Source: Microbulbifer sp. ALW1
GTDB lineage: Bacteria > Pseudomonadota > Gammaproteobacteria > Pseudomonadales > Cellvibrionaceae
Direction of reading: 5' to 3'
Assembly: GCF_009903625.1 (NCBI RefSeq)
Contig: NZ_CP047569.1
Coordinates: 20,001 to 84,000, forward strand
Length of the DNA stretch: 64,000 nt
Every line of letters starts with the position of its first letter. The first letter of the stretch is position 1. The position numbers were made by a program, and so were the translations under genes. Shown here piece after piece: positions 30,291 through 53,954 of this stretch. The notes under the pieces are model-generated. The model ran no database searches, was not told where the DNA came from, and saw only the letters and a list, made by a program, of their open reading frames with translations.

Positions 30291-30350
30291 GCCCTCGGCA
30301 CTGTGTATCCCAACCTGAAGGTATGCAGTTCTGTCCCACCACCGTGGCGG

Positions 30351-30472
30351 GGCAGCACCGGGTATCGGTTTTCAAAACCGAGCTGGGCGCCCCCCAGTGA
30401 ATACATCCCTGTACGCTGCGTCGGCGACGTCCCTGTCGCCGACGCTTTTGAAAACCGATACCCGGCACTTCC
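30351..30472 (-). repeat. structured palindromic repeat, copy A
   Basis: Perfect 20 bp arms at 30358-30377 and 30446-30465, extended outward to 30351/30472 by weaker pairing. The core is 68 nt, longer than in other copies. On the minus strand it contains an 11 bp hairpin (30418-30428 with 30435-30445) around an AGGGAC loop. A short hairpin TACA-GGGA-TGTA (30402-30413) follows, with TTCAC after it. The GGGA loops are on the minus strand, opposite to accC and prmA transcription. Confidence 0.85.
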
Positions 30473-30545
30473 CCTTTAGCCCGACCTTTCTTACCCTGTA
30501 AGCCAATTTCCGCACTACCCAAGTAGCACCGCAGTCCGAATCGAA

Positions 30546-30661
30546 GGTGCTGCCCCCGGTAAGGCTTTGCGGGACCGTCTGCGGCCAGGACGGCCGCAGT
30601 CGAGCCCCCATGGATGGGTTCACGGCGTGTCCCGCAAAGCCTTACCGGGGGCAGCAGCGCC
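30546..30661 (+). repeat. structured palindromic repeat, copy B
   Basis: Perfect 27 bp arms at 30549-30575 and 30629-30655 enclose a 53 nt core. Hairpin 1 is CTGCGGCC/GGCCGCAG with loop AGGAC (30579-30599). Hairpin 2 is CCCA-TGGA-TGGG, followed by the conserved GTTCACGGCG. The core is almost identical to copies C and D, while the arm middle is different. It lies 73 bp after copy A in opposite orientation, in the accC-prmA gap. Confidence 0.9.
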
Positions 30662-30708
30662 TCAGGACTTCGGGAAAACTTAAACCACCGAACTTCGGAT
30701 TACACTCA

Positions 30709-31599
30709 ATGCCCTGGCTCCAACTCCGCGTAAACACCAATCGAGAACAGGCAGGCAAAATCGAAGATGCCCTGCTGTTCGCCGGTGCCGTCTCCGTCAC
30801 CCTGCAAGACAATGCCGACCAGCCCATTCTAGAGCCGGGCCTCGGCGAAACGCCTCTGTGGGACGAGACCCTCGTCACCGGCCTCTTCGACGCCGAAGTT
30901 GACACCAACATCGCCGAAGCCAAAGCCGCCTCCCACCTCTGCGAACTGCTCCCCAACGCCCGCTGGGAACAGCTTGAAGACAAAGACTGGGAGCGGGAAT
31001 GGATGAGCCACTACAAACCCATCCAGTGCGCCGACAACCTCTGGATCTGCCCCAGCTGGTGCGAACCGCCGGAACCCAACGCCGTCAACCTGCTGCTGGA
31101 CCCCGGCCTCGCCTTCGGCACCGGCACCCACCCCACCACCTTTCTGTGCCTGCAATGGCTCGCCAGCGAACCCGTCAGCGGCAAAACCGCCATCGACTAC
31201 GGCTGCGGCTCCGGCATCCTCGGCATCGCCGCCCTACTACTCGGCGCTGAAAGTGCCCTCGGCACCGACATCGACCCCCAGGCCCTGATCGCCAGTCGCG
31301 ACAATGCCAAACGCAACGGCATAGACCCGGATCGCTTCCCGGTATACCTTCCGGAGAAAACACCGCCCGCCAGTGAAGCCAGCGCCGATCTGATGCTGGC
31401 CAATATCCTCGCCGGCCCCCTGGTAGAACTCGCACCGCAACTGATAGAACGCACCCGGGTCGGCGGCCGCATCTGCCTGTCCGGCATCCTCTCCAGCCAG
31501 GCAGACAAAGTGAAGGCGGCTTACAGCCAGTGGATTGATTTTGAATCGGACGGTATGAAAGAAGACTGGGTTCGCCTCAGCGGTACACGAATCAGATAA
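30709..31599 (+). CDS. prmA: ribosomal protein L11 methyltransferase PrmA
   Basis: Trimethylates ribosomal protein L11 using SAM. 296 aa from the ATG at 30709 (MPWLQLRVNTNREQ). The frame is open far upstream only because it runs through repeat B. Motifs: substrate/SAM loop DPGLAFGTGTHPTT, SAM motif I IDYGCGSGILGIAAL, acidic D at LGTDIDPQAL, and LANILAGPL. Flanked on both sides by palindromic repeats. Confidence 0.95.
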   Translation: MPWLQLRVNTNREQAGKIEDALLFAGAVSVTLQDNADQPILEPGLGETPLWDETLVTGLFDAEVDTNIAEAKAASHLCELLPNARWEQLEDKDWEREWMSHYKPIQCADNLWICPSWCEPPEPNAVNLLLDPGLAFGTGTHPTTFLCLQWLASEPVSGKTAIDYGCGSGILGIAALLLGAESALGTDIDPQALIASRDNAKRNGIDPDRFPVYLPEKTPPASEASADLMLANILAGPLVELAPQLIERTRVGGRICLSGILSSQADKVKAAYSQWIDFESDGMKEDWVRLSGTRIR

Positions 31600-31620
31600 C
31601 CCCCTGAAGCCAAATGCTAA

Positions 31621-31736
31621 GGCGCTGATGCCGATGGTCCTTTGCGGGACCGTCTGCGGCCAGGACGGCCGCAGCCGAGCCCCCATGGATGGGTTTACGG
31701 CGTGTCCCGCAAAGGACCATCGGCATCAGCGACGCC
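31621..31736 (+). repeat. structured palindromic repeat, copy C
   Basis: Perfect 27 bp arms at 31624-31650 and 31704-31730 around a 53 nt core nearly identical to copy B (GGCC hairpin, CCCA-TGGA-TGGG hairpin, TTTACGGCG). The block between CCG and CTTT in the arm differs from B (ATGGTC against GTAAGG), and the partner arm carries the matching change. It is 21 bp downstream of prmA. Confidence 0.9.
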
Positions 31737-31830
31737 ACTGTGCTCACCCTTAAGCTCCCAAACGTAGGCACTACGCCAAACTCCACCAGACTGATAAACT
31801 TCCCCGCCAAAGCAATAATCGTCGAAATCC

Positions 31831-33153
31831 ATGTCGCAACTGGTCACCCGCTGCCCCCACTGCAGCACCTCATTCCACGTCAGTGAAGATCAGCTTCGCG
31901 CCGCTCGCGGTGCCGTGCGCTGTGGCTCCTGCCTGCAAGTCTTTCGCGCCGATGAAAACATCGTATTCAACGAGGATGACCCGCAGCCAGCGAGCAAGAA
32001 AGCCATTGAAGAACTGCTGGAAGACGACGACTTTCTGATCCACGACGATATTGACCTGGAAGGTGACGACTCCGCCGAAAGTATTTCCGACGAAATCGCC
32101 CCCGCCCGCAAGGCCAGTGGCGACAAAGCGCAGGGAGCGCCGGCCACGGAGAACCGCGCCCGCCAGAGCCCGCTGATCGATGACGCTTTTGGCGAGCAGC
32201 AGTGGCAGGAGCTGGATAACAAAGACGCCCAGCAAGACCTGGACCTGGGTATCGGCGAAGACCTGGAAGCTGCCAGCGAGGATCCCTGGGCTGAAGAGAT
32301 CGCCCGGGAGGAATCCAGTGGTGTAGACAGCTGGGACCAGTCCCCCAGTACCCAGACGGACTTTGATGAGCCCGCAGCAGCCCGCGACGAATTTAGCTTC
32401 ACCGACGACCTGGGACTACCCCAGGCACCAGAAGATGACCCTTTTATCCTGCCGGACGATATCGACGCGCACGAGGACCTCGAGCGCTTTTCCGACAACG
32501 GCCCCCTAACCGGGGCAAGTGCGACGCACCAGAAGCCGCGCAGCCTGCCGGACGATCACGACGATCATATCGACCCCCGGCAACGCGACCAGGCCCCACT
32601 GCTCCCCAGAGACCAGCTGATTTCCGCCATAGGTCCGGCGCCCATCGAAGTGAACTGGCAGCCCCGGCGACACAACCGGGTGCCAGCCTGGCTGTGGACA
32701 CTCGGCAGCGTACTTTTAATGCTGACACTGGCAGCCCAGGTCGCCTACTTCCGTTTCGACACCCTGAGCAAGCGCGACCCCTGGCGCGGTATCTATGCGC
32801 AACTGTGTCCGCTACTGGGGTGCAAACTGCCGGCACAGGTGGACATCAATGCCATTCATACCGCCAACCTGGTGGTGCGCAGCCACCCCTCCATTCCCGG
32901 CGCGCTGGCGGTGGAGGCGGTACTACTGAACCGGGCACCCTTTGACCAGCCTTTCCCGGCACTACAGCTGCGCTTTACCGACCTGAAGAACGCCCCTGTC
33001 GCCAGCCGTCGTTTCCAGCCTCAGGAATACCTCAAGGGCGAGCTTTCCGGGCGCCAGCTGATGCCCAGCGGCAACCCGGTACATATCGCCCTCGATATTG
33101 TCGACCCGGGCGAGGACGCCGTGAACTATGAGCTGCGCATCGCGAAGCAGTAG
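31831..33153 (+). CDS. zinc-ribbon and DUF3426 membrane protein
   Basis: 440 aa. The N-terminal MJ0042-type zinc ribbon has CPHC (residues 8-11) and CGSC (32-35). A long acidic, low-complexity region covers about 45-260. One TM helix lies near 285-307 (LWTLGSVLLMLTLAAQVAYF), and the C-terminal 120 residues are a DUF3426-like domain that should be periplasmic. Conserved between prmA and dusB in pseudomonads; function unknown. The acidic middle may bind a cationic partner, but this is speculation. Confidence 0.85.
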   Translation: MSQLVTRCPHCSTSFHVSEDQLRAARGAVRCGSCLQVFRADENIVFNEDDPQPASKKAIEELLEDDDFLIHDDIDLEGDDSAESISDEIAPARKASGDKAQGAPATENRARQSPLIDDAFGEQQWQELDNKDAQQDLDLGIGEDLEAASEDPWAEEIAREESSGVDSWDQSPSTQTDFDEPAAARDEFSFTDDLGLPQAPEDDPFILPDDIDAHEDLERFSDNGPLTGASATHQKPRSLPDDHDDHIDPRQRDQAPLLPRDQLISAIGPAPIEVNWQPRRHNRVPAWLWTLGSVLLMLTLAAQVAYFRFDTLSKRDPWRGIYAQLCPLLGCKLPAQVDINAIHTANLVVRSHPSIPGALAVEAVLLNRAPFDQPFPALQLRFTDLKNAPVASRRFQPQEYLKGELSGRQLMPSGNPVHIALDIVDPGEDAVNYELRIAKQ

Positions 33154-33311
33154 GCAGTAAAGAACCCTGCGCGGCGTAATAATCTTCGTGTTACTGCACA
33201 AACTTCGCCCTAAACGGCCAGCCATCGAACAATTTGCGCGCTTTTTCGCTTTTCCAGCGGCCGACCAGCCGCTATTATAGGCCGCTCTTCAGACACCCTA
33301 TTTGCCCTCGC

Positions 33312-33333
33312 GGGGATCGAAAGCAAGATCCCC
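33312..33333 (+). promoter_or_regulatory. leader hairpin before dusB-fis
   Basis: GGGGATC (33312-33318) and GATCCCC (33327-33333) form a 7 bp stem with loop GAAAGCAA, 30 bp before the dusB start. A TATTAT box at 33273-33278 with a poor -35 is a possible promoter. In E. coli the dusB-fis promoter is growth-rate controlled; no equivalent site can be shown here. Confidence 0.35.
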
Positions 33334-33362
33334 GGCAGGAATTAACCCGCGGGAGGGCGCAG

Positions 33363-34373
33363 TTGCCCACGGAATTGCCAAGCAGCTTCGCCATAGGCCC
33401 CTATAACATCGGTGCGCCAGTCATACTGGCGCCCATGGCCGGCGTTACTGATCGCCCCTTCCGCCAACTGTGCCGCGAACTCGGTGCAGGCCTGGTGGTG
33501 TCGGAAATGGTTACCTCTGACACCAGCCTGTGGGACAGCCGCAAATCGCGAATGCGCCTGGATCATAGCGGAGAAGCCGGCCCCATCTCCGTTCAGATTG
33601 CCGGTGGCGATCCACAGATGATGGCCGAAGCTGCACAGGCAAATGTTGAGCGCGGCGCCCAGATCATAGACATCAATATGGGCTGCCCGGCAAAGAAGGT
33701 GTGCAAAAAAGCGGCGGGCTCTGCCCTGCTGCGCGACGAAAAACTGGTCGCCGACATTCTGGAATCGGTGGTGCAATCCGTCTCAGTACCGGTAACGCTG
33801 AAAATTCGTACCGGCTGGTGTCCGGATTCCCGCAACGGAGTGACGGTGGCCAAAATGGCCGAAGATCTCGGGATCACTGCCCTGGCGGTTCACGGACGCA
33901 CCCGCGCCTGTGGCTACCATGGTCAGGCCGAATTCGATACCATTGCCGAGATTGTGTCTGCGGTAAAGATTCCGGTCTTTGCCAACGGCGATATCACCGG
34001 CGCGGAAAAGGCCCGCAAGGTGTTGGACTACACCGGCGCCAGGGCGGTCATGATTGGCCGTGCGGCTCAGGGACGTCCATGGATTTTCCGGGAGATTGCT
34101 CACTTCCTCGCAACGGGAGAGCAGCTACCGGAGCCATCACTGGAAGAAGTCAGGGACATATTGCTTACTCACTTGAGTGAGCTACATCGTTTTTATGGTG
34201 AGGTTATGGGGGTACGCATCGCCCGCAAACACGTGGGTTGGTACGTAAAAACACTCGCCGACAGCGAGTCCTTTCGCAAGACCTTTAACCAAATTGATAG
34301 CGCAGAAGCACAACATGCCAGCGTTCGTGAGTGGTTTGAACGCCGAATAACTAGAGGGGCAAAAGCGGCATGA
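33363..34373 (+). CDS. dusB: tRNA-dihydrouridine synthase DusB
   Basis: FMN-dependent enzyme that reduces uridines in the tRNA D-loop. The best start is a TTG giving [17 protein letters not shown] (336 aa), preceded at normal spacing by GGGAGG; the upstream frame is open but unsupported. Motifs: [15 protein letters not shown], the catalytic Cys in [20 protein letters not shown], and [15 protein letters not shown]. It overlaps fis by 4 bp (ATGA), the ancient dusB-fis operon. Confidence 0.95.
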
Positions 34374-34675
34374 ATAATGAAGCACTGATTCCGGATGCCA
34401 GTGATGTGGCATCCACCGGGGGCCAGACACAACTACAACAACCGCAGCAGCAGTCACTGCGCGATGCGGTTGAGCAGGCGATGGAAAACTACTTCCGTCA
34501 CCTGGACGGCCAGATGGTGACTGAAGTCTACGACATGGTTCTGTCCGAGATTGAAGCACCGATGCTGGAAGTGGTAATGAAACACACCCGCCACAACCAG
34601 ACACGCGCCGCGCAAATGCTGGGCCTCAACCGGGGAACCCTGCGTAAAAAGCTCAAGCGCTACGGTCTGCTGTAA
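34370..34675 (+). CDS. fis: nucleoid protein and global regulator Fis
   Basis: 101 aa DNA-bending protein. The C-terminal helix-turn-helix is complete ([36 protein letters not shown]). The N-terminus is longer and glutamine-rich compared with E. coli Fis (98 aa). Translation is coupled to dusB by a 4 bp overlap. A strong intrinsic terminator follows 50 bp later. Confidence 0.97.
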
Positions 34676-34725
34676 GGCAGCCCACCGCTACCGGCAGACA
34701 TAAGCCGGAGCGGTAAAAATTCGAT

Positions 34726-34770
34726 GAGGGGGGATGGGTTTTACCCATCCCCCCTCGCTATTTTCTGTTT
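34726..34770 (+). terminator. intrinsic terminator of dusB-fis
   Basis: 14 bp perfect stem, GAGGGGGGATGGGT (34726-34739) with ACCCATCCCCCCTC (34743-34756), loop TTT, followed by GCTATTTTCTGTTT. Confidence 0.88.
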
Positions 34771-34772
34771 AT

Positions 34773-34949
34773 GATGAATTGGATCGGTCCGGCCGCTTCA
34801 ACGCGGCGCCTTCGGCCCATGCCCAATTCATCGTCGCCCCCAAAATGCTGGCGCAGATGTGTGAATCTACTGACATTTTGGGGGCTCGCGCCGGCCTCCG
34901 GCCGCGGCGGCACCTGTTTGTCATGCATGTGCCGCAAATGCTCTTTTTT
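34773..34949 (+). promoter_or_regulatory. structured purH leader (candidate attenuator or riboswitch)
   Basis: The 200 bp before purH contain four nested or serial perfect stems. They are GATGAATTGG/CCAATTCATC (34773-34782 with 34823-34832), with an inner GCCGC/GCGGC (34792-34807). Next is GCCCCCAAAATG/CATTTTGGGGGC (34836-34847 with 34874-34885). Last is GCGGCAC/GTGCCGC (34907-34913 with 34929-34935). A run of six T follows at 34944-34949, 9 nt beyond the last stem. No small coding gene is convincing here. The fold suggests cis control of purine synthesis, but it matches no RNA family I can name. Confidence 0.5.
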
Positions 34950-34971
34950 AACTTCAGATGGATGATGCAAT

Positions 34972-36546
34972 ATGACTGACAAGGTGGCCGTTCGCCGCGC
35001 GCTGATCAGCGTTTCTGACAAAACCGGCATTGTGGAATTTGCCCGCGAGCTCTCTGAAATGGGTGTGGAGATCCTCTCCACCGGCGGCACCTACCGCCAG
35101 CTGGGCGAAGCCGGTATCCCGGTAGTGGAAGTTTCCGACTACACAGGCTTCCCGGAAATGATGGACGGCCGCGTCAAAACCCTGCATCCGAAAGTGCACG
35201 GCGGCATCCTTGGCCGTCGCGGCAAAGACGACGCGGTAATGAGTGAACACGGCATCAAGCCCATCGACATGGTCGTGGTCAATCTCTACCCCTTCAAGGC
35301 CACCGTCGCCGACCCTAACTGCGACCTGCCCACCGCCATCGAAAACATCGACATCGGCGGCCCCACCATGGTCCGCTCCGCCGCCAAGAATCACAAAGAC
35401 GTCGCCATCGTGGTCAACGCCCACAGCTACGACACCGTGATCGAGGAAATGAAAGCCAACGACGGCCAGCTGGGTTACGAAACCCGCTACGACCTGATGG
35501 TGCAGGCATTCGAACATACCGCGCAGTACGACGGCATGATCGCCAACCACTTCGGCGCGCGTAACACCAGCAACGAAGCCCGCGAGTTCCCCAACACCTT
35601 CAACGTGCAGTTCGAAAAAGCCCAGGACATGCGCTACGGTGAGAACCCGCATCAAAAGGCGGCCTTCTACGTGGAAGCTGACGCGGAAGAAGCCTCCGTC
35701 TCCACCGCCAGCCAGCTGCAGGGCAAGGAACTCTCCTTCAACAACGTCGCCGACACCGACGCCGCGCTGGAAACCGTCAAACTGTTCGACGAACCCGCCT
35801 GCGTCATCGTCAAACACGCCAACCCCTGCGGTGTCGCCGTAGCCGCGGACATCAAGACCGCCTACGAACTGGCCTTCGCCACCGACCCGGAATCCGCCTT
35901 CGGCGGCATCATCGCCTTCAACCGTGAACTGGACGCCGAAACCGCCCAGCTGATCGTCGACAAGCAGTTCTCCGAAGTCATCATCGCCCCCAAAGTCTCC
36001 GAAGGTGCGGCAAAAGCGGTCTCCGCCAAACAGAACGTGCGCCTGCTGGAATGTGGCGAATGGGGCAGCGAAAGCCCGACAGCGTTCGACTTCAAACGCG
36101 TCACTGGTGGCCTGCTGATCCAGGAAAAAGACAACGGCATGGTCGCCAAGGAAGACCTCAAAGTGGTCACCAAGGTGCAACCGTCTGACGAGCAAATGGA
36201 CGAACTGCTGTTCGCCTGGAAAGTGGCCAAGATGGTCAAATCCAACGCCATCATCTACGCCAAAGACGGCCGCACCATCGGCGTCGGCGCCGGCCAGATG
36301 AGCCGCGTCAACTCCGCGCGTATCGCCGCCATCAAGGCCGAACACGCAGGCCTCGAAGTCAAAGGCGCCGTCATGGCATCAGACGCCTTCTTCCCCTTCC
36401 GCGACGGCATCGACAACGCCGCCAAGGTCGGCATCAGCGCCGTGATCCAGCCCGGCGGCTCCGTGCGCGACGAGGAAGTGATCGCCGCTGCCGACGAGCA
36501 CGGTATGGCGATGGTGTTTACCGGCATGCGCCACTTCCGTCACTAA
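34972..36546 (+). CDS. purH: bifunctional AICAR formyltransferase / IMP cyclohydrolase
   Basis: Last two steps of de novo IMP synthesis. 524 aa. The N-terminal MGS-like cyclohydrolase domain (about 1-195) has [22 protein letters not shown] and [15 protein letters not shown]. The AICAR transformylase domain (about 200-524) has KHANPCGVA and the C-terminal [25 protein letters not shown]. Intact. It is preceded by the structured leader and followed by repeat copy D before purD. Confidence 0.97.
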
Positions 36547-36603
36547 GCGCAAATTAATACGACTACCGACACGGGTACGTAATATTCCCGCGTTATACGG
36601 GAA

Positions 36604-36716
36604 GGTTCTGGAGCTGGTGCCCCTTTCCGAGACCGTCTGCGGCCAGGACGGCCGCAGCCGAGCCCCCATGGATGGGTTCACGGCGTGTCTCGGAAAGGGG
36701 CACCAGCTTCAGAACC
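36604..36716 (+). repeat. structured palindromic repeat, copy D
   Basis: 30 bp arms at 36604-36633 and 36687-36716 with a single G-T (G-U in RNA) mismatch. The 53 nt core is nearly identical to B and C. The arm middle (GTGCCCC) is unlike any other copy and is matched in the partner arm. It sits in the 287 bp purH-purD gap; the rest of that gap shows nothing. Confidence 0.9.
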
Positions 36717-36833
36717 GCCACAGGACTGGCAACGAAGCGCTCTTAACTACCTCCCAAACCAGTCTCTACCCGGCAACCCAGCGCAAAATGCTAAACTAGC
36801 CCACCTAAATAACAGGCACGGGGAAACTCAAGA

Positions 36834-38129
36834 ATGAATATCCTGGTAATCGGCTCTGGTGGCCGCGAACACGCACTGGCCTGGAAGGCCGCCCAAAACC
36901 CCGCCGTAGACACCGTCTTCGTCGCACCGGGCAACGCCGGCACCGCCCGCGAACCCAAACTCCAGAACGTCAACATCGGCGTCGACAACTTCTCCGCCCT
37001 GTCTGACCTGGTCGAAGAAAAAGGCATCAACCTCACCATCGTCGGCCCCGAAGTCCCCCTCGTTGCCGGCATCGTCGACTTCTTCAACGCCCGCGGCCAC
37101 AACATCTTCGGCCCAGAAAAAGCCGCCGCCCAGCTCGAAGGCTCCAAAGCCTTCACCAAAGACTTCCTCGAGCGTCACGCCATCCCCACCGCCGCCTACC
37201 AGAACTTCACCGAAGTCGAACCGGCCATCGAATACGTGCGTGCACAGGGCGCCCCCATCGTCGTCAAAGCTGACGGCCTTGCCGCCGGTAAAGGCGTCAT
37301 CGTCGCCGAAACTGTGGAACAGGCCGAGTTGGCCGTGCGCGATATGCTCAGCGGCAATGCCTTCGGCGACGCCGGCTGCCGCGTGGTCATCGAAGAATTC
37401 CTCACCGGCGAAGAAGCCAGTTTCATCGTCATGGTCGACGGCGAAAACATCCTGCCCATGGCCACCAGCCAGGACCACAAGCGCGTTGGCGACGGCGACA
37501 CCGGTCCCAACACCGGCGGTATGGGCGCCTACTCCCCGGCACCCGTAGTCACCCCGGATGTCCACGCCCGTGTGATGAAAGAAGTCATCGAGCCCACCGT
37601 GAAAGGCCTGGCTTCCGAAGGCATGCCCTACACCGGCTTCCTCTACGCCGGCCTGATGATCAACGAAGAAGGCGCACCCAAGGTTATCGAGTACAACTGC
37701 CGCTTCGGTGACCCGGAAACCCAGCCGATCATGATGCGCCTCAAGTCCGACCTGGTAGAGCTGTGTATGGCCGCCATCGAAAAGCGCCTGGACAAGGTGG
37801 AAGTGGAGTGGGACACGCGCCCGGCCCTGGGTGTGGTATTGGCCGCAAACGGTTACCCGGGCAGCTATCGCAAAGGCGATGCCATTAACGGACTCGACAA
37901 GGCCGACAGCGAAAATGCCAAGATTTTCCACGCCGGCACCGCCCTGGACGGCGAGCGTGTTGTGACCAGCGGCGGCCGTGTGCTCTGCGCCACTGCACTG
38001 GGAGACACCGTGGCGGAAGCCAAAGAAAACGCCTACCAGTGCGCCCGCAATATCCACTGGGAAGGCGTTTTTTACCGCAAGGATATCGGCTACCGCGCGG
38101 TCGAGCGCGAGCAGTCTGAAGAGGCCTGA
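36834..38129 (+). CDS. purD: phosphoribosylamine-glycine ligase
   Basis: ATP-grasp enzyme making GAR in de novo purine synthesis. 431 aa. [18 protein letters not shown] start, [30 protein letters not shown], and the catalytic region [21 protein letters not shown]. Separated from purH by repeat D. The third codon positions are strongly C-biased in this gene and purH, giving long spurious antisense frames. Confidence 0.97.
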
Positions 38130-38154
38130 TGGCCTCATCGGTGGGAGAATTGCC

Positions 38155-38799
38155 ATGAGCCAACGCCAACTGACCGGACTGGACCGCCTGCTGCTGCAGG
38201 CGGATCGCGCCCTGCGCACCCTGAGCCCGGGATCGCCCTGCCACGAGCGCCCGTCACCAGCCAAATCCGCAGACGAGGCCGAGCTGTCGGACGCCGAGCG
38301 CCGCCATGCGGCGGGGCTGATGCGGGTCAATCACAGCGGTGAAGTCTGCGCCCAGGCGCTGTATCAGGGCCAGGCGCTGACGGCCAAGCTGCCGCAGGTA
38401 CGGGCGGAAATGGAACATGCGGCAGATGAGGAGATCGACCACCTGGCCTGGTGTGAGCAGCGTTTGCAGGAGCTCGACAGCCGCCCCAGCCTGCTGAATC
38501 CGCTGTGGTACGGCCTTTCCTTCGGGATTGGTGCGACCGCCGGCAAGATCAGTGACAAGGTCAGCCTAGGGTTTGTGGCCGCGACCGAAGAGCAGGTGTG
38601 CAAGCACCTGGAAGATCACCTCCAGCGTTTACCCGCTCAGGATCAACGCAGTCGCGCGGTGGTCGAGCAGATGCTGGTGGACGAAGCCAAGCACCAGCAC
38701 GCGGCGCTGGATGCCGGTGGCGCGCGCTTTCCCGGCCCGGTCAAGGGACTGATGACGATGGTGTCCAAGGCGATGACGTCTGTCACTTACCGGGTCTAG
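38155..38799 (+). CDS. coq7: 2-polyprenyl-3-methyl-6-methoxy-1,4-benzoquinol hydroxylase Coq7
   Basis: Di-iron hydroxylase of ubiquinone synthesis. 214 aa from the ATG at 38155, which has GTGGGAG upstream. Iron ligands can be placed in [29 protein letters not shown] and [12 protein letters not shown]. 25 bp after purD, so possibly partly cotranscribed; ends at a strong bidirectional terminator facing the OsmC gene. Confidence 0.95.
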
Positions 38800-38824
38800 T
38801 CGCAGCCCCTGGGTATTTCTCGCC

Positions 38825-38870
38825 AATAAAAAACCCCGGTTCTCGACGAGACCCGGGGTTTTTTATTTTT
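38825..38870. terminator. bidirectional terminator between coq7 and the OsmC gene
   Basis: Long stem: AATAAAAAACCCCGG on the left pairs with CCGGGGTTTTTTATT on the right, with an inner TCTC/GAGA stem and loop GAC. U-tracts occur on both strands. Confidence 0.9.
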
Positions 38871-38897
38871 CCGGCTGAACCAGCTAACAAGTCCGAT

Positions 38898-39317
38898 TCA
38901 CACCTCTTCAATCCGGTAGCTGTGGACGATTTCCACCCCGGATTTGCCCAGCATGATGGATGCCGAGCAGTACTTCTCCGCGGACAGTTCCACCGCGCGC
39001 GCCACCTGCGCCTCTTTGATATTCCGCCCACGCACCACAAATTCCATCTCGATCTTTTCAAACGGTGCCGGAACCGCATCGGGGCGGTGACCCTTGAGTT
39101 CAACGTGACAGCTGACCAGATCCTGGCGCGCCTTCTGCAGAATGCCTACCACGTCGTAGGAAGCGCAGCCGCCCACCCCCAGCAGAATCATTTCCATCGG
39201 GCGGATACCGTTGTTCTTTTGGCCACCTTCCATGACCACCGAATTGCCACTGCCGGACTCACCGACAAAAGTGACACCGTTCACCCAGGTCACCTGACCC
39301 TGCATAACACCCGCCAT
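38898..39317 (-). CDS. OsmC family protein (YhfA-like)
   Basis: 139 aa. The two redox cysteines of the OsmC/Ohr fold are present: Cys51 in GVGGCASYDVV and Cys117 in AEKYCSASIML. The ATG at 39317 follows a strong AAGGAGAT; a 49-codon extension is rejected. It is divergent from crp, as yhfA is next to crp in E. coli and next to vfr in Pseudomonas. Organic hydroperoxide reduction is the family activity, but the YhfA branch is not well characterised. Confidence 0.9.
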   Translation of the reverse strand: MAGVMQGQVTWVNGVTFVGESGSGNSVVMEGGQKNNGIRPMEMILLGVGGCASYDVVGILQKARQDLVSCHVELKGHRPDAVPAPFEKIEMEFVVRGRNIKEAQVARAVELSAEKYCSASIMLGKSGVEIVHSYRIEEV

Positions 39318-39625
39318 GGAATAATCTCCTTCAAAATGGATGGGGGCCGGGAGCTTATCACATGGGAACCCCAGTTCCGCAGCACCCCGGTATGGAATTA
39401 CTCTGTAGCGGCTCACAAACCAAAGTAAGCCTTTACTCACGGCGGTTGTCAGCACAGTCCACAACCGCTATAAACAACACCCAGTCCCAGCCCTTTGCAA
39501 ATAGTGGCCCAGATCACATTGCGAAGCATTGCCGCGCCCTGCCCCTGTCGGCACCGGTCTTTTAGCGGGATAATCGTCCTCTTACCCGGGATCAGGCACA
39601 AAAATTCAAGAAAAGGAGTAGATCC
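39318..39625. other. divergent OsmC-crp intergenic region
   Basis: 308 bp, no gene. It should contain both promoters. One Crp-like half-palindrome is listed separately; no other structure is convincing. Confidence 0.45.
39503..39518 (+). promoter_or_regulatory. possible Crp/Vfr binding site upstream of crp
   Basis: AGTGGCCCAGATCACA fits the TGTGA-N6-TCACA pattern with a perfect right half and a 3/5 left half. It is 107 bp before the crp start, so auto-regulation is possible. Confidence 0.35.
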
Positions 39626-42688: not shown

Positions 42689-42689
42689 A

Positions 42690-42713: not shown

Positions 42714-42751
42714 CAGTTATTACGTGCGCCTCCCTGCGCAGCCCTTGAGAC

Positions 42752-44938: not shown

Positions 44939-45172
44939 TTCATTCTCCGCTATGTCATCAGGGGGTATTTGGGGTTGTGATTCAGGTATCGACTCCAACG
45001 GCCTCCGGAAAAGGCCGTTGCCGAACCCACTCAAAATGTCTAACGCGCCAATATAGCATTTCATGAATGACTGGGAATTCACCTCAATGTCGTTCACCCC
45101 GACAGCCCAACCATTCATCCCGTCGCTCGGCTCGACACTTACGTAACTCCCTTACGCAACACCCTTACGACA

Positions 45173-46084
45173 CTAACCAGTCACGGAGCCGATAGCTTCC
45201 CCCAGGAAGTCCAGCAACATACTGACCTTGGGCGACAGATGGCGGTTGTGGGGATAGATCCCCCAGATACCGTCATCCTCCTCGCGGTAGGGCTCCAGCA
45301 GCGACACCAGCCGCCCCTCCTGCAAATCCTGATCCACGTAGTAATCCGGCAACTGCACAATGCCGATGCCCTTCAGTGCCGCGTCCACCAGTGCACGGCC
45401 GCTGTTGCAGCGGAAGCTGCCGCTCACCCTGATATTCCTCGAACGCCCCTGCTCGCGAAAACGCCAGTAATCCAGAGTGCCCGGCAGGCAGCTATGTCGC
45501 GCCAGCTCGGACAGGCTGTGTGGTTCGCCGTGGGAAGACAGGTAGTGTGGGGAGGCGCAGACATACAGGGTGCGCGACCCCAGCCGTCGCGCCATCATGC
45601 TGGAGTCTGTCAGCTTGCCGAGGCGAATGGCGAGGTCATAGCCTTCCGCTACCAGGTCGAGCTTCTGGTTTGTGAGTTCCATTTCTACCTGCAACTCGGG
45701 ATAACGCAGGACAAAATCGTTGACCAGTGGTGCCAGCGTGGTCTCGCCGTAGGTCACCGGCGCCGTCAGCCGCAATCGGCCCCGAGGCACCTGTTGCAGG
45801 TCCGTCACCGCGCGCTCGGCCTCCGCCAGCCCATCCAGCACCTGGCGGCAGTGCTGGTAGTAGACCTGCCCCACTTCCGTCATCGATACCTTGCGGGTGG
45901 TACGATAAAGCAATCGGGTGGATAGCCGCCCCTCCAGTGCGCTCACCTGCCGACTGACCTGGGCCGTGGAAATCCCCAGCTTGCGCGCAGCGCCGGTAAA
46001 GCTGCCGGACTCGGCCACGGCCACAAATTCACTCACCCCCTCCCAGTTACCTGCGCTCACTGATCTGTCACCTCTCGTAATCAC
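45173..46084 (-). CDS. LysR-family transcriptional regulator
   Basis: About 303 aa. N-terminal winged helix (FVAVAESGSFTGAARKLGISTAQVSRQVSALEGRLSTRLL) and a C-terminal periplasmic-binding-like effector domain of the CrgA/YhcS type. The first codon is GTG; a second GTG at 46060 with AGAGGTG upstream is also possible. It is divergent from the formaldehyde dehydrogenase gene across about 140 bp and is the natural candidate to control it. Confidence 0.92.
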   Translation of the reverse strand: MITRGDRSVSAGNWEGVSEFVAVAESGSFTGAARKLGISTAQVSRQVSALEGRLSTRLLYRTTRKVSMTEVGQVYYQHCRQVLDGLAEAERAVTDLQQVPRGRLRLTAPVTYGETTLAPLVNDFVLRYPELQVEMELTNQKLDLVAEGYDLAIRLGKLTDSSMMARRLGSRTLYVCASPHYLSSHGEPHSLSELARHSCLPGTLDYWRFREQGRSRNIRVSGSFRCNSGRALVDAALKGIGIVQLPDYYVDQDLQEGRLVSLLEPYREEDDGIWGIYPHNRHLSPKVSMLLDFLGEAIGSVTG

Positions 46085-46158
46085 GGGACTGGATTGTTAC
46101 CAGATGGAAAAAATGTTTTGCAATTGGTACGGATTATACGCAAATCAGAAAAAGATAG

Positions 46159-47349
<1,191 letters not shown>

Positions 47350-47417
47350 GCGCAAAACTGGGGCTGAAAATTAGGGCTGAAATTAAGGCTAGGTCTCAGC
47401 CCTATCCCACAGGCATA

Positions 47418-47444
47418 AAAAAACCGGGCGCTGCCCGGTTTTTT
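47418..47444. terminator. bidirectional terminator between adhC and trpC
   Basis: 12 bp perfect stem AAAAAACCGGGC/GCCCGGTTTTTT with loop GCT, serving both convergent genes. Confidence 0.92.
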
Positions 47445-47475
47445 ATCGGCGAACGCCGTTCCTGAACGGCACAAC

Positions 47476-48270
47476 TTAATTGAACAATTCCAGCAAACGA
47501 CGGCCCGGCTCTTCTTCCCGCATAAACGCTTCCCCCACCAGGAAGGTATCCACATTGTGGCCGCGCATTGCCGCCACATCGTCAGTGGTGTGGATGCCGC
47601 TTTCGGTCACCACGATACGATCTTCCGGAATCAGGTCCAGCAGCTTGAAAGTAGTTTCCAGCTGTACTTCGAAGTTGTGCAGGTTGCGGTTGTTGATACC
47701 GATGAGTCGGTTGGGCAGCTTCAGGGCCCGCTCCAGTTCCTGGCGGTCGTGCACTTCCACCAGCACATCCAGGCCCAGCTCCAGCGCCAGGTCATTCAGG
47801 CTGGTGAGCTGTGCGTCGTCCAGACAGGCGGCAATCAGCAGGATACAGTCGGCACCGATAGCGCGGGCTTCATACACCTGGTAAGGATCGACAATAAAAT
47901 CTTTGCGGATCACTGGCAGGCGCACGGCATTGCGGGCCTGCTGCAGATACTCGTCGGCACCCTGGAAAAAGTCCACATCGGTCAGCACCGACAGACAGGC
48001 GGCACCGCCTTTCTCGTAGCTGGTGGCGATCTCCGCGGGGATAAAGTCTTCCCGGATCACACCCTTGCTCGGCGAGGCCTTCTTGATCTCGGCGATGACC
48101 GCCGCTTCACCGGCATTGCGCTTGGTCTCAATGGCATTCACAAAACCACGGCAGGGAGGCTGCTGCAGGGCGCGCTGCTGCATTTCATCCTGACTGACCA
48201 GCTTCTTGCGTTCGGCCACTTCTTCCCATTTGCGCTCGACAATGGTTTTCAGAATTGTTGGCGTATTCAT
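47476..48270 (-). CDS. trpC: indole-3-glycerol phosphate synthase
   Basis: Fourth step of tryptophan synthesis. 264 aa TIM barrel with [45 protein letters not shown] and VTESGI. Monofunctional, with no trpF fusion. Four bases separate it from the trpD stop; it is the last gene of the minus-strand trp series. Confidence 0.97.
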
Positions 48271-48274
48271 TACT

Positions 48275-49312
48275 TCACTCTCTGAATGCGCTGGTAAAGG
48301 CGGCCAGCTCGTTTATCTTCTCTCCGGCGAGGCCGCTGTAGATGGCGTCCTGCGCCATGCTCACCCCTTCCGCCCGGCTTGCAGCCACGCCACTGACGTA
48401 GATGGCCATGCCGGCATTCATGGCAATGATATCAGCTGCCTTGTCCCCTGCGGGGGTTTCACGCTTGCCGAGGGCATCGCGGATCAGGGCCAGGGACGCT
48501 TCGGAACCGTCCACACACAGCCCGTCCAGATTCTGGCGCTCGATACCGAAATCTTCCGGCGCGATGGTGACCTTTTTCAATTCACCGTTCTTCAGCTCCC
48601 AACCGCGGGTATCTGCGGCCAGACTGACTTCATCCAGGCCGTCATCACTGTGCAGCACCAGCACATGCTCGGCACCCAGGGTCTGCAGCACCTCCGCCAG
48701 CATGCGGCAGTAGTGGTAATCAAACACGCCGATGACCTGGCGCTTGACGCCGGCGGGATTGGTCAGCGGCCCCAGCAGATTGAAAATGGTGCGCAGTCCC
48801 AATGCCTTGCGCGGGCCTATGGCGTGACGCATGGCGCTGTGATAGCTGGGAGCGAACATAAACCCCACCCCCACACCGTCGATGCAGCGGGCAACCTGTT
48901 CGGGAGTCAAAGGTAGATAGATACCCGCTTTTTCCAGCAGGTCTGCTGCACCGGAAGAAGAGGAAACGGAACGATTACCATGCTTGGCCACCCGCGCACC
49001 GGCTGCGGCGGCGACAAAACTGGAAGCACTGGAGACGTTAAACAGGTTGGCACCATCACCGCCGGTACCAACGATATCCACCGCGTTGGTCTGATCGATC
49101 TCGACCTTGGTGCACAACTCGCGCATCACTTCTACCGCACCGGTGATTTCCTCCACGGATTCACCGGCCATACGCAACGCCACAAGAAACGCACCAATCT
49201 GCGCGTCTTCCGCTTCCCCACGCATAATCTGGCCCATGGCCTCGCGCATTTCTCCGCGGGTGAGATGCTCACCCTCGACCAGTTTTCCGATGGCCTGTTG
49301 GATATTCATCAT
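48275..49312 (-). CDS. trpD: anthranilate phosphoribosyltransferase
   Basis: Second step of tryptophan synthesis. 345 aa. PRPP-binding [19 protein letters not shown] and [18 protein letters not shown] are intact. AGGGGAAG precedes the ATG-ATG start. The 213 bp between trpG and trpD contains palindromic repeat E, so the operon is interrupted by the element. Confidence 0.97.
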
Positions 49313-49376
49313 TCTTCCCCTTCCCTAAGATTTTCGTTTCCCGGGGGTTCGCTATGTCTCCGGCATCCAAAGCTAA

Positions 49377-49488
49377 GGTGCTGATACCGGGATCCGTTTG
49401 CGAGACCTTCTAAAACAGGGATGTTTTAGAAAAGCCCCCAGGGATGGGTTCACGGCGTGTCTCGCAAACGGATACCGGTAGCAGCGCC
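49377..49488 (+). repeat. structured palindromic repeat, copy E
   Basis: 30 nt arms at 49377-49406 and 49459-49488 with one T-G wobble and two mismatches; 52 nt core. Hairpin 1 has a completely different stem from other copies, TTCTAAAACA/TGTTTTAGAA (49408-49431), around a GGGA tetraloop. Hairpin 2 is CCCA-GGGA-TGGG followed by TTCACGGCG. Orientation is opposite to trp transcription. Confidence 0.88.
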
Positions 49489-49525
49489 GCCACCAGACCA
49501 TTTGCGAAGCACCGAACCAAATACC

Positions 49526-50104
49526 TCAAGACTCCAAAAAATTCCGAAGCATATCGTGACCGTGCTGAGTCAGGATCGACTCTGGATGGAACTGCACCCC
49601 TTCGATCGGCAACTCGCGATGGCGAATTCCCATAATCTCATCGATCTCGCCGTCTGCGGTCTCGGTCCAAGCGGTAACTTCCAGACAATCCGGCAGACTG
49701 CCCTTCTCCACCACCAGCGAATGGTAGCGGGTCGCCTCAAACGGATTGGACAGGCCGTGAAACACGCCGAGGTTGTTGTGAATGATCGGCGAGGTCTTGC
49801 CGTGCATCACCTCTCCGGCGCGCACCACGCGACCGCCAAACACCTGGCCGATACTCTGGTGACCGAGGCAGATACCGAGAATCGGCAATTTGCCCGCATA
49901 AGCGCGAATGGTCTCCATGGAGATACCCGCTTCGTTCGGCGTGCAGGGGCCCGGGGATATCACGATTTTCTCCGGGTTCAGTTTCTCGATATCCGCAACG
50001 GTAATTTCGTCGTTGCGTTTCACTACGACGTCAGCCCCCAACTCCGCCAGATACTGCACGATGTTGAAGGTGAAGGAGTCGTAGTTGTCGATCATCAGGA
50101 TCAT
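49526..50104 (-). CDS. trpG: anthranilate synthase glutamine amidotransferase component
   Basis: 192 aa class I amidotransferase giving ammonia to TrpE. Nucleophile Cys79 in [11 protein letters not shown]; oxyanion [10 protein letters not shown]; the catalytic His/Glu region [10 protein letters not shown]. Its ATG overlaps the stop of the ion-channel gene by 4 bp (ATGA), so its translation is probably coupled to the channel. Confidence 0.97.
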
Positions 50105-50958
50105 GATTCGCTTCCTTTCTCATCTCCCATGTCTCCCAAGCGCTTCTGCAAGCGGGCGAGGGATTCCTGGGTTGCGCGGAGCTCGCGCAGAATTTCGGTT
50201 TGACTCGGCGGCATCGCCAGCTCGTCCAGGCGGCGCAACTTGGCCTCTTCCAGGTTGTTCAGAACCACCCCGATAAACAGGTTGATCATCACAAACGCGC
50301 CCATCACCACAAAGCTGATGAAGTAAATCCACGCATAGGGCATGGCCTCCATCGCGGTGTACATGATGTCCGTCCAGTCCTCAAAGGTGACGATACGGAA
50401 CAGACTCAACAAAGCAATCGGCAGGGTACGCCAGTGGGTGGGGTCGATTTCGTGAAACAGGAAATAACCGGCCACCCCGTAAATGTAAAAAATGATCCCC
50501 ATCAGCAAGCTGATATGGAACATGCTCGGCAGACTGCGCAGCAGCGTATCCACCAGCAGTCGCAGTTCCGGAAACGCCGATACCAGTCGTAAAACCCGTA
50601 GTACGCGCACCAGCCGCGCCAGTGTGGCCATGGGGCCCGCGGCCGGAATCAGACTCAGCACGATGATACTGAAATCAAAACAGTTCCAGCCGTTAGCGAA
50701 GTAGCGCCAGGGGCGGTTGCCGTGCGCGGCTATTTTGATCGCGGCCTCCACCATAAACGCCAGCAGGATCAGCTGGTTGATACCGTGCAGGGTGCTGCTG
50801 AATCGCTCAAGCACCCAGGTGGAGGTTTCCAGTCCCACCACCACGGCATTCACCGAGATCAGGGCGATAATCACCTGATTGAAAATCGGTGCGTCGACCC
50901 AGCGGCGGCACTGTTCAGCAAAACTGCTGTTCTGCCCTACTGATACTTCACTACTCAT
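50101..50958 (-). CDS. voltage-gated-type ion channel subunit (BacNaV-like ion transporter)
   Basis: About 285 aa, six TM segments. S4 has arginines every third residue ([17 protein letters not shown]). The pore loop between S5 and S6 has the filter TFEDWTD, more acidic than the TLESW of NaChBac. S6 ([20 protein letters not shown]) and a C-terminal coiled-coil region ([19 protein letters not shown]) follow. Expected tetrameric Na+ or Ca2+ channel. It lies between trpE and trpG, 36 bp after trpE and overlapping trpG by 4 bp, an unexpected place. The ATG at 50958 is preferred to a TTG six codons upstream. Confidence 0.88.
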
Positions 50959-50994
50959 CGGTTCTACAGCTTCCAATGGATCAAGAAAATAAGG

Positions 50995-52476
50995 TTATTG
51001 CCCGGTAGCGATGGCCACAGCGCGAAACAGTGCCCGCGCCTTGTTCATGGTTTCATCCCACTCGGATTGCGGATCGGAATCCGCGACCAGGCCGGCACCG
51101 GCCTGCACGTACACTTTTTCGTCCTTGATCACCGCGGTGCGAATCGCGATGGCGGTATCCATATTGCCATTCCACGCCAGATAACCCACGGCACCGCCGT
51201 AGATACCGCGCTTTTCCGGCTCCAGCTCGTCGATAATTTCCATCGCGCGAATCTTGGGCGCGCCGGACAGGGTTCCTGCCGGGTGGGCCGCACGCAGGGC
51301 GTCGATGGCGTGCAGCTCCGGTTTGATCTTGCCGGTCACGTTGGAGACGATGTGCATTACGTGGGAGTAACGCTCCACCACCATCTTTTCGGTCACCTGC
51401 ACTGTGCCAGTTTGCGCAACCCGACCCACGTCGTTGCGACCCAGGTCGATCAGCATCAGGTGCTCGGCAATCTCTTTCGGGTCCGCCAGCAGGTCTTTTT
51501 CCAGCGCCAGATCCTGCTCCTCGGTGGCGCCGCGGCGGCGGGTGCCGGCGATCGGGCGCACGGTCATATCACCATCTTCCAGGTGCACCAGGATCTCAGG
51601 GCTCGAACCCACTACCTGATGATCCCCCAGGTCGAGGAAGTACATATATGGAGACGGATTGAGGCTGCGCAAGGCGCGATACAAGTTCAGCGGCGGAACC
51701 GTAAACGGTGCCGACAGGCGCTGAGACGGAACTACCTGCATGACATCGCCGGCCAGGATGTACTCTTTGACCTTGTGCACGCCCTGCTTGAAGGCTTCTT
51801 CGCCGAAATGGGAAGTAAAAATGTCTTCCGCGGTGTGTTCGCCGTCGATGCCCAATGGCTCGACGCTGGCCAGCGGCTGCGACAGCTGGCCCACCAGCTG
51901 GTCCAGGCGACGCTGGGCGGACTCGAAGGCGTCTTCCTGTTGCGGGTCCGCGTGCACGATAAACAGCACCGCGCCGGCCAAATTGTCGAACACCACCAGC
52001 TCGTCGCTGACCATCAGCAGGATATCCGGATTACCCAGGGTGTCGGGCGGGCAGCTGTCGGCGAGTTTGGGCTCGATATAGCGCACCACGTCATAGCCGA
52101 AATAGCCCACAAGGCCGCCGTTGAAGCGCGGCAGGCCCTCGATTTCCGGCACCTTGTAACGACCGCGGAACTCCTCGACGAAGGCCAGCGGGTCTGCAAC
52201 GGTTTTCTGCTCGACGATTTTGCCATCGCGCTCGACTACCACATCGTGACCGGCCACTCTCAGTACGGTGCGCGCGGGCAGGCCGATAATGGAGTAACGC
52301 CCCCACTTTTCCCCGCCCTGTACGGACTCAAACAGGTAGCTGTAGCGGCCGCCATCGCGGGCGGCGAGCTTCATATAAGTCGTCAGCGGGGTTTCTATGT
52401 CGGCCAGTACGCGGCGGACAAGAGGTATGCGGTTGTATCCTGCAGACGCAAGTTGGGCGTATTCGCTGGGGGTCAT
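50995..52476 (-). CDS. trpE: anthranilate synthase component I
   Basis: Chorismate to anthranilate with TrpG. 493 aa. C-terminal chorismate-binding motifs include [31 protein letters not shown] and [24 protein letters not shown] precedes the ATG. No Trp-rich leader peptide is visible upstream on the minus strand, so classic attenuation is not supported. Between trpE and rpe the Pseudomonas gene gph is missing; two palindromic repeats lie there instead. Confidence 0.97.
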
Positions 52477-52817
52477 GGCGACTCCGGTCTGTGCAATGCT
52501 TCGTATTTTGTATTCGGGCCTGGATTGCGCATCTTTGGTGGAATCCTACCCGCGAGAAAGGCGCCCGTCGGACCAGTTCTGGTCTTCAGGCTTCAGCGGA
52601 TCAGTGGCGCCATCGCCAGCTGTTGATGTGGGGGGCAGTGCAGTTCAATGTTCGCTTTCTCACAGCGTTGACGTCGCAGCGTCGAGTTGCTTCCCTGTAT
52701 TCCGGCGAGCAAGTGTACAAATCTCTGGTAAAGGCGGCAAGCTTGGGATTTCGTGACTTGAAATTGGCCGTTTTAGACCATTTGTGGTCCTTGGTGGTTC
52801 TTTTCAGTCGCGGAGGC
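52477..52817. other. region upstream of trpE
   Basis: About 340 bp that should hold the trpE promoter. I find no tandem Trp codons, no convincing coding frame and no stable hairpin before repeat F begins. Confidence 0.4.
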
Positions 52818-52928
52818 GCCGAGGCACCGGGTAAAGGTTTTTGAAAACGCGGTGAACCCATCCCTGGGCGCTGCGGCGCAAACATCCTGTTTGCGACGCT
52901 TTCAAAAACCTTTACCCGGTACTCCGGC
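52818..52928 (-). repeat. structured palindromic repeat, copy F
   Basis: Perfect 21 bp arms at 52826-52846 and 52900-52920, with weaker outer pairing to 52818/52928; 53 nt core. On the minus strand hairpin 1 is CGCAAACA/TGTTTGCG around GGA, and hairpin 2 is CCCA-GGGA-TGGG followed by TTCAC. The arm resembles copy A (CCGGGTA shared), while the core resembles H. Confidence 0.88.
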
Positions 52929-52967
52929 TTCAATTCGGACTAATGAAGCTCTGAACTCAGATGCGAA

Positions 52968-53079
52968 GGCTGGGTGCCGGGGGCTGCCTTTCGAAAGCGT
53001 GAGCGACAGGGACGTCGCTCACGCAGCGTACAGGGATGTATTCACAGCGGTTTCGAAAGGCAGCACCCGGTGCCCAGCC
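52968..53079 (+). repeat. structured palindromic repeat, copy G
   Basis: 29 nt arms at 52968-52996 and 53051-53079 with a T-G and a G-T wobble and one mismatch; 54 nt core. Hairpin 1 is GTGAGCGAC/GTCGCTCAC around AGGGAC. Hairpin 2 is TACA-GGGA-TGTA, then TTCACAGCGG. 39 bp after copy F, in opposite orientation, in the trpE-rpe gap. Confidence 0.88.
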
Positions 53080-53118
53080 GCTACGGAGCCCACTACGAAG
53101 CCTCCAAGGCTACGAAGC

Positions 53119-53787
53119 TCAAGCCTGAGCCAACTCCGAACGCATCACCTTGATCACTTCCGCATAGTCATCCGCATTGAAGATGGCGGAGCCTGCGACG
53201 AAGCTGTCGGCACCGGCCTGGGCGATTTCGCGGATGTTGTCTTTGGTTACGCCGCCGTCGATCTCGAGGCGGATGTCGAGGCCGGAATCGTCGATCAGTT
53301 TGCGTGCTTCCTTCAGCTTATCGAGGGTGGCGGGGATGAACTTCTGGCCACCGAAGCCGGGGTTTACGGACATGAGCAGGATCATGTCGAGCTTGTCCAT
53401 GACATATTTGGCGGCGTCGAGGCTGGAGGCGGGGTTGAACACCAAGCCTGATTTACAGCCGAGGGACTGGATCAGTTGCAGGGAGCGGTCGACATGCTTG
53501 CTGGCTTCCGGGTGGAAGGTGATATAGGTGGCCCCGGCGTCCGCGAACATGCGGATCATGTCGTCGACGGGTTCGACCATTAGGTGGACGTCGATGGGGG
53601 CAGTTACACCGTGGTTGCGGAGCGCCTTGCAGACCATGGGGCCGATGGTGAGGTTGGGGACATAGTGGTTGTCCATTACGTCGAAGTGCACCCAGTCGGC
53701 GCCGGCGGCGAGGACGTTATCGACTTCTTCACCCAAGCGGGCGAAGTTGGCGGAGAGGATGGAGGGTGCAATTTTGTAGTCTGGCAT
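53119..53787 (-). CDS. rpe: ribulose-phosphate 3-epimerase
   Basis: Interconverts ribulose-5-P and xylulose-5-P in the pentose phosphate and Calvin-type routes. 222 aa TIM barrel: [61 protein letters not shown] and GSAIF. The ATG at 53787 (GACGAGAAA upstream) gives the normal length; a 40-codon extension would run into repeat H. Upstream of trpE on the same strand as in Pseudomonas. Confidence 0.96.
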
Positions 53788-53843
53788 TTTCTCGTCTCGA
53801 TGCTTGGAGGTTTCGCCCCGGAGCTTTGTTTCAGCTCGGTGGC

Positions 53844-53954
53844 GGCCGGGCGCCGGGAGGAGCTTTTCGGGACCGCTGTGAACCCATCCCTGGGCGCTTC
53901 GGCGCAAACATCCTGTTTGCGACGATCCCGAAAAGCTCCTCCCGGCACCCGGCC
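53844..53954 (-). repeat. structured palindromic repeat, copy H
   Basis: 29 nt arms at 53844-53872 and 53926-53954 with one mismatch that is G-U on the minus strand; 53 nt core. Hairpin 1 (CGCAAACA/TGTTTGCG) and hairpin 2 (CCCA-GGGA-TGGG, then TTCACAGCGG) are on the minus strand. It sits between murU and rpe, all transcribed on the minus strand. Confidence 0.88.

Follow-up and report, generated by a model that had tools for sequence, protein, structure and literature searches.

A YPAL-related family of intergenic palindromic repeats in Microbulbifer sp. ALW1 and its predicted dual CsrA site

YPAL repeats lie close to stop codons, and transcripts that carry them are reportedly present at higher levels. 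YPAL (De Gregorio, 2006) is the same repeat as the Yersinia RU-2 printed in Table 1b of PMC2759123, and in the available excerpts of PMC2229807 it is listed for Yersinia and Erwinia carotovora and presented as mobile, with target duplications of 3-26 bp, and as an element that might influence the stability of upstream transcripts. A second structured element, the Rfam family TwoAYGGAY (RF01731), has a table entry in PMC2864571 and, in the part of PMC4333381 available, is proposed to bind CsrA. According to PMC7652899, systematic evolution of ligands by exponential enrichment (SELEX) gave the CsrA consensus RUACARGGAUGU with short stems favoured, the CsrB repeats read CAGGA(U/A/C)G, RsmE contacts an ANGGAN hexaloop, and a single CsrA dimer can span two sites separated by 10-63 nt, more than 18 nt being optimal. 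Here we analyse a palindromic repeat that occurs eight times in a 64,000-nt stretch of Microbulbifer sp. ALW1 (NZ_CP047569.1, positions 20,001 to 84,000; hereafter the window), and argue that it is probably a YPAL-type non-autonomous mobile intergenic element whose RNA presents a predicted dual CsrA site.

Relation to described repeat and RNA families

The original prediction treated the repeat as unrecognised, a description that was not borne out, as its core is homologous to that of YPAL/RU-2. A literature search with six core 14-mers led to the printed RU-2 and to no other paper, and a profile of the Microbulbifer core aligns with it end to end over 54 positions in nhmmer (37.1 bits, E 8.7e-10; the best E among 2000 shuffles was 0.13). 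RU-2 likewise carries two GGA loops, 24 nt apart, and YPAL is, in the excerpts available, intergenic, present in many copies and found with filled and empty sites. Its unit of ~168 bp compares with a palindrome of 111-122 nt and, at one site described below, an insertion of ~166 nt here, and the stems of the window copies are longer and more perfect than that of the printed RU-2. The comparison with Rfam that had been proposed gave a divided answer: the window has no match at the cut-offs, whereas one relative from another genus (L294:399-525) passes RF01731 with 47.9 bits against a cut-off of 43. TwoAYGGAY shares with our element an outer stem bearing two GGA-loop hairpins. Nothing matched RF01731 at cut-off in the window or in 20 loci containing relatives, nor at E <=10 in positions 49000-54500. 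Set against AYGGAY, the hairpin 2 loop is ATGGAT in copies B, C and D and AGGGAT in A and E-H.

REP/BIME and REPIN elements are intergenic palindromes that occur in inverted pairs, as does the present family, which differs in being longer, in having two inner hairpins and in showing no link to Y1 transposase counts. The CsrA-sequestering small RNAs of the CsrB/RsmZ type also use RNA hairpins with GGA loops, but these are small RNA genes with many sites, whereas here a two-site intergenic element is present in many copies. RsmW, in the Rfam clan of TwoAYGGAY, matches the window at chance level (19.9 bits, cut-off 52); microRNA-type Rfam matches were below cut-off, as were those to Ysr224, which fell on the element's opposite strand where compared. 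ERIC (RU-1), given in the excerpts of PMC2759123 as an intergenic repeat of ~127 bp in enterobacteria, is unlike our element in sequence as judged by eye, and other Pseudomonas repeats are described in the part of PMC2718517 available. In the open-licence literature searched, no paper was found that treats YPAL and CsrA jointly, nor, as far as the excerpts available extend, any that links CsrA to REP or miniature transposable elements; a search with ACAGGGATGT returned no bacterial repeat paper among the titles examined. The link between YPAL, TwoAYGGAY and the present repeats, and their spread through many bacteria, look new.

The family, its fold and its loops

All eight window copies, A to H, were found at the places first given for them, and the shared plan ascribed to them, outer arms enclosing two inner hairpins, was confirmed together with their intergenic siting among accC-prmA, purH-purD, trpD-trpG and trpE-rpe. 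A covariance-model search of the window, a check that had been proposed, returned the same eight copies and no others, at 121-136 nt each including flanks. With hairpin 2 read forward, three of the copies (A, F and H) are in minus orientation. In the accC-prmA spacer, copy A (30344..30479, minus) is the odd one, a long variant with ~14 additional nt 3' of hairpin 2, its loops being AGGGAC in hairpin 1 (30429-30434) and AGGGAT in hairpin 2 (30405-30410); copy B (30541..30663, plus), whose orthologs were aligned, has AGGAC (30587-30591) and ATGGAT (30610-30615) in the same order. Copy C (31616..31738, plus) lies 3' of prmA, at a site that is without a copy in several same-genus genomes, with loops at 31662-31666 and 31685-31690 (ATGGAT), and copy D (36599..36721, plus) lies between purH and purD, with loops at 36645-36649 and 36668-36673 (ATGGAT). 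Copy E (49372..49493, plus), between trpD and trpG and antisense relative to these flanking genes, carries AGGGAT in both hairpins (49417-49422 and 49440-49445). In the trpE-rpe group, copy F (52813..52933, minus; loops at 52884-52888 and 52860-52865, the latter AGGGAT), upstream of trpE, forms an inverted pair with copy G (52963..53084, plus; AGGGAC at 53008-53013 and AGGGAT at 53032-53037), whose hairpin 2 reads GUACAGGGAUGU. Copy H (53839..53959, minus; loops at 53910-53914 and 53886-53891, the latter AGGGAT) follows between rpe and murU. The open reading frames that overlap copies B and H have their starts inside these copies, 5' of the probable true ones. Arms of the eight copies measure 28-32 nt with a complementarity of 88-100%, and computed folding energies run from -67.4 to -95.5 kcal/mol.

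The proposed search of the whole genome (4.68 Mb, one contig) showed the eight to be part of a family of at least 122 copies, 64 on the plus and 58 on the minus strand. The covariance model used, R1, was built from 86 copies found by exact matches to the 21-nt core pattern YMCANGGATGKRTTYACNGCG (48 forward, 38 reverse; the reversed pattern, as a control, gave 0). Its 144 rows were reduced to 122 by removing 22, namely 21 opposite-strand echoes and one 60-nt fragment, and the figure is a lower bound because the initial pass scored the best 150 of 2363 candidates. The outer stem has a median length of 29 bp over the 122 copies. At least three core types can be told apart by eye, the first combining TACAGGGATGTA with TTCACAGCG, the second CCCAGGGATGGG with TTCACAGCG, and the third CCCA(T/G)GGATGGG with TT(C/T)ACGGCG; to these is added the long variant typified by copy A, which recurs in other copies of the same genome (rows of 133-137 nt) and in other species.

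Read with hairpin 2 forward, the plus strand of the element forms a long stem topped by a junction from which the two hairpins project. Across the 86 pattern-found copies standard pairs fill 86.2% of the cells of this 44-pair structure, compared with 67.6 in shuffled alignments and at most 48.9 in slid versions; 37 of the 44 pairs have changed on both sides (shuffled mean 29.5, slid versions 19-29), and the covariation score is 0.517 (shuffled 0.188, slid <=0.183). Further pair types, the exception among the five measures, showed no excess, its value being reached by 62 of 500 shuffles, and by 43 and 339 of 500 in the fixed-locus alignments of copies A and B. Among 30 accC-prmA loci examined, many same-genus relatives retain both copies, A in minus and B in plus orientation. 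The orthologs of copy A (12 distinct sequences) contain 15 pairs changed on both sides, with 0-4 in slid controls, and those of copy B (11 distinct sequences) contain 20, with 2-6 in slid controls; these alignments, A3 and A4, omit long or broken variants, the window's own copy A among them. The conserved forked fold with compensatory arms is thus supported both by the dispersed copies and by the orthologous ones. Compensatory change is seen within one locus, unless copies there have been exchanged by gene conversion, and since core types differ between species at accC-prmA some such swapping is likely. Two species, represented by L265 copy C and L277 copy B, have similar GC-rich segments within the loop of hairpin 1, as if such loops were insertion spots. 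The accC-prmA spacers of L289, L290, L291 and L293, from genomes with multiple csrA genes, contain a lone short hairpin with a CANGGAYG loop before prmA.

The arms also bear on which strand folds. The arm cells of the 122 copies comprise 3305 Watson-Crick, 192 G.T, 9 A.C, 70 G.A and 29 other combinations, in a register chosen with G.T and A.C weighted identically, and many of the G.T cells fall at consensus positions. Leaving out consensus wobble positions, G.T stands to A.C as 17 to 2 at arm positions 0-17 of the 86 pattern-found copies, a count in which A.C was penalised slightly more than G.T when choosing the register. The same comparison gives 19 to 3 in 34 copies from a sample of the class and 94 to 23 in matches at named loci, where 97 of 120 aligned matches were retained for their hairpin 2 loop and the arms could be measured in 77 of these. 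Because mutation of double-stranded DNA should yield both mispairs equally, the plus strand, as RNA or as single-stranded DNA, appears to be selected to fold.

The original prediction had recorded the CAGGGA(T/C)G loops without remarking that they are, on sequence, of the predicted CsrA/RsmA recognition type. Every one of the 122 copies has ANGGAN as its hairpin 2 loop, as established by rule in 119 and by eye in 3. In the 119 copies examined for hairpin 1, the loop is ANGGA in 70 and AGGA in 42, together 112, with GGA only in 5 and no GGA in 2. Hairpin 2, and mostly hairpin 1 as well, takes the form CANGGAYG or CAGGAYG, and 38 of the 122 copies contain the exact SELEX consensus. Where both loops are of this kind (72 copies) the GGA-GGA distance is 23 nt in 20 and 24 nt in 52, a spacing that would fall in the range that one CsrA dimer can bridge. 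The same features recur further afield. In the class sample 34 of 36 aligned matches were retained for having a hairpin 2 loop, and both hairpins are ANGGAN, with N being A, C, G or T, in 28 of these 34; their closing pair is C-G in 28/28 and 27/28 copies and their distance again 23 or 24 nt. At the named loci 70 of the 97 retained matches have ANGGAN in both hairpins, N being any base and the loops usually closed by C-G.

The element is found in many genera of the class Gammaproteobacteria. A search of related genomes, as had been proposed, gave matches in 28 of the 38 genomes of the relatives set (our own included) and in 5 of its 14 genera, with copy numbers that vary among related genomes (a per-genome count of 94 here means at least 94). 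At E 1e-5 the class sample of 274 genomes yields 46 with matches, and at E 1e-6 a phylum sample of 398 yields 27, all 27 belonging to the same class or nearer, where the share of the 398 that lies outside the class was not counted. The R1 matches listed from named genomes, in at least 118 stretches, include Microbulbifer, Marinobacter, Halomonas, Stenotrophomonas, Xanthomonas, Alteromonas, Shewanella and Rheinheimera, with the top scores in Microbulbifer; the comparison with R1 used 80 of these stretches, and since the scan demanded the hairpin 2 loop it is uninformative on that loop, hairpin 1 being unconstrained.

Siting, mobility and csrA in host genomes

Genes around the copies were called with a simple coding model trained on open reading frames of the window, omitting the 11 of 122 copies that had no called neighbour. 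The neighbours of the other 111 are tandem in 87 cases, convergent in 21 and divergent in 3, and 99 of these intergenic copies lie within 150 bp of the 3' end of a facing gene (median distance 36 nt, n=108), a further likeness to YPAL. Element pairs less than 520 bp apart number 21, all 21 of them inverted, with gaps of 47-80 bp in 14. Copy density falls from origin to terminus (Kolmogorov-Smirnov p 2.4e-6; dnaA at 638 kb). Replication strand was set aside as an explanation, 57 copies being co-directional and 65 head-on, without bias. The site of copy C, 3' of prmA, is filled in genome G000 (231-nt spacer) and empty in G001, G002 and G040 (65 nt), which gives an insertion of ~166 nt, and G018 and G039 hold apparent remnants; these filled, empty and remnant states indicate an element that is mobile or readily lost.

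Two candidate mobilisers were considered and rejected. Counts of the RAYT/Y1 transposase (PF01797) do not follow those of the element: no PF01797 match was obtained at E 0.001 in G012 and G022 (draft assemblies of ~30 and 9 contigs), which carry 55 and 50 copies, whereas G003, G004, G009, G010 and G014 have such matches yet only 1-11 copies. On the plasmid pDCA (L031:1067-2640) an ISAs1-family transposase gene (1248-2396) lies between two related inverted elements, at 1103-1217 (minus) and 2488-2604 (plus), flanked on the outside by 17-bp inverted repeats. No element adjoins any of four ISAs1 relatives (44-46% identical) from other plasmids, and the 17-bp end repeat was not found in the stretches of our own genome examined; we take the single pDCA arrangement as a lead to the mobiliser, not as a result.

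The number of csrA genes differs among the genomes. Eight of the same genus (G003, G004, G006, G009, G010, G014, G043 and G050) have 5-21 csrA matches each, some of them fragments, and the other 32 genomes mostly have one. By majority consensus, 19 csrA paralogs (L369-L386 and L388) share a conserved leader of ~300 nt and little downstream, and weak sub-cut-off matches to the SymR antitoxin RNA occur in two such leaders (L379:313-383 and L388:311-381, minus strand). Six multi-csrA genomes were searched with R1: G003, G004, G009, G010 and G014 hold 1-11 repeats and G006 holds 72.

Explanations and meaning

If the repeats are, as we think probable, mobile YPAL-type elements with a dual CsrA site, copies directly 3' of stop codons would be transcribed together with the upstream gene, and the stem would present both loops to the two faces of a single CsrA dimer. 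Occupancy by CsrA could then alter the decay or readthrough of the host mRNA, and a hundred or more copies might jointly buffer free CsrA, while the arms would be kept matched partly by selection on the fold and partly by arm-to-arm copying at the DNA level. Several observations weigh against this proposal. Of the 87 copies between tandem genes, 50 are sense and 37 antisense, without significant bias (p 0.20), and an RNA read through an antisense copy would present no GGA loops. A csrA gene was not found in the searched, partly masked sequence of our own genome, and the same holds for lysC, the gene preceding csrA in G052; masked stretches adjoin csrA or lysC in G052, G008 and G041, and we therefore take csrA of our genome to be masked, not absent. 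Possession of csrA does not discriminate either, as the gene was seen in 41 of the 45 genomes of the class that carry the element and in 193 of the 228 others. Hairpin 1 is without a six-base-type loop in 49 of the 119 copies, 2 of them lacking GGA, and its stem of ~7-11 pairs differs from the short stems that SELEX favoured. The AGC before and TT-AC-GCG after hairpin 2 are equally fixed and are not explained by CsrA, and the model that found the distant copies had learnt the loops, so that loop counts there are not fully independent.

On a rival view the repeat could be purely selfish DNA, its folded strand or ends the substrate of a transposase that reads the loops and its RNA inert. Dispersal, a copy number that varies among related genomes, filled and empty sites, the absence of significant orientation bias to genes, the inversion of all 21 neighbouring pairs with 14 gaps of 47-80 bp, and the inverted elements of pDCA, bounded by an ISAs1-family transposase gene on one side and terminal inverted repeats of 17 bp on the other, would all suit such an element, and tolerance of G.T fits folded single-stranded DNA equally well. 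We nevertheless judge it unlikely, as PF01797 does not track the element in the seven genomes named above, the four ISAs1 relatives lack it, the pDCA end repeat is missing from the own-genome stretches examined, and, in each of the two different hairpins, the fixed A and GGA enclose a free N, the pattern that CsrA reads. That the element acts without CsrA as a plain hairpin at mRNA 3' ends, its strong stem stabilising the upstream transcript, is possible if somewhat doubtful: the role is the one proposed for YPAL in the excerpts of PMC2229807, and both the folding energies of the eight copies and the nearness of a gene 3' end in 99 of 111 cases agree with it, but fixed loops and spacing beside a free stem sequence are left unexplained. 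An integron attC-like recombination site or a CRISPR-like array would share the folded strand and variable arms, and is very improbable for copies that are scattered between core operon genes and not arrayed, no search for an integrase having been made.

A different challenge concerns the covariation, which the original prediction took as an argument for a conserved fold and which could be mainly a product of DNA, with hairpin-templated arm copying or gene conversion changing the arms as a matched pair. At the innermost 12 arm positions the Watson-Crick types are varied, yet only 11 G.U and 4 mismatches occur in 1032 cells, and this scarcity points to some additional arm-to-arm copying. At the fixed loci transversion-linked and transition-linked two-sided contrasts are about equally frequent (11 to 10 and 9 to 11), and at one locus the core type varies from species to species. 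In G291, from another genus, ten copies with near-identical cores have arms of 31-34 nt (measured to 34 nt at most), nine of them mispair-free at 32-34 nt, and a median inner-arm identity between copies of 0.27, compared with 0.55 in G238; these figures rest on the ten-copy analysis, a separate measurement at 8 of 10 loci, in which L414 was probably on the wrong strand, having been set aside. By eye, no relatedness is apparent between the arms of different genera. Neither the conserved tandem G.U pairs retained in the outer arms nor the great excess of G.T over A.C would be expected from copying alone, and we regard copying as a conceivable but not a favoured main cause. An origin of the arms as fresh inverted copies of the target is also disfavoured, since outer arms share recognisable sequence in G291 and in our own genome. 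The conserved fold stands, and part of the covariation may stem from DNA-level copying between the arms.

We propose, tentatively, that YPAL, TwoAYGGAY and the repeats described here could form one mobile family, present across many lineages of the Gammaproteobacteria, that carries a ready-made dual CsrA site as cargo, that its insertion behind genes, in a hundred copies or more, would rewire the Csr network and soak up CsrA, and that its arms would be renewed by copying. Were this so, YPAL and TwoAYGGAY would be offered a protein partner, and the family would provide a system in which to test selection against copying as the keeper of matched palindrome arms in bacteria. A mobile family would then have sown high-affinity CsrA sites by the hundred, and a parasite would in part determine the Csr regulon of many environmental bacteria.

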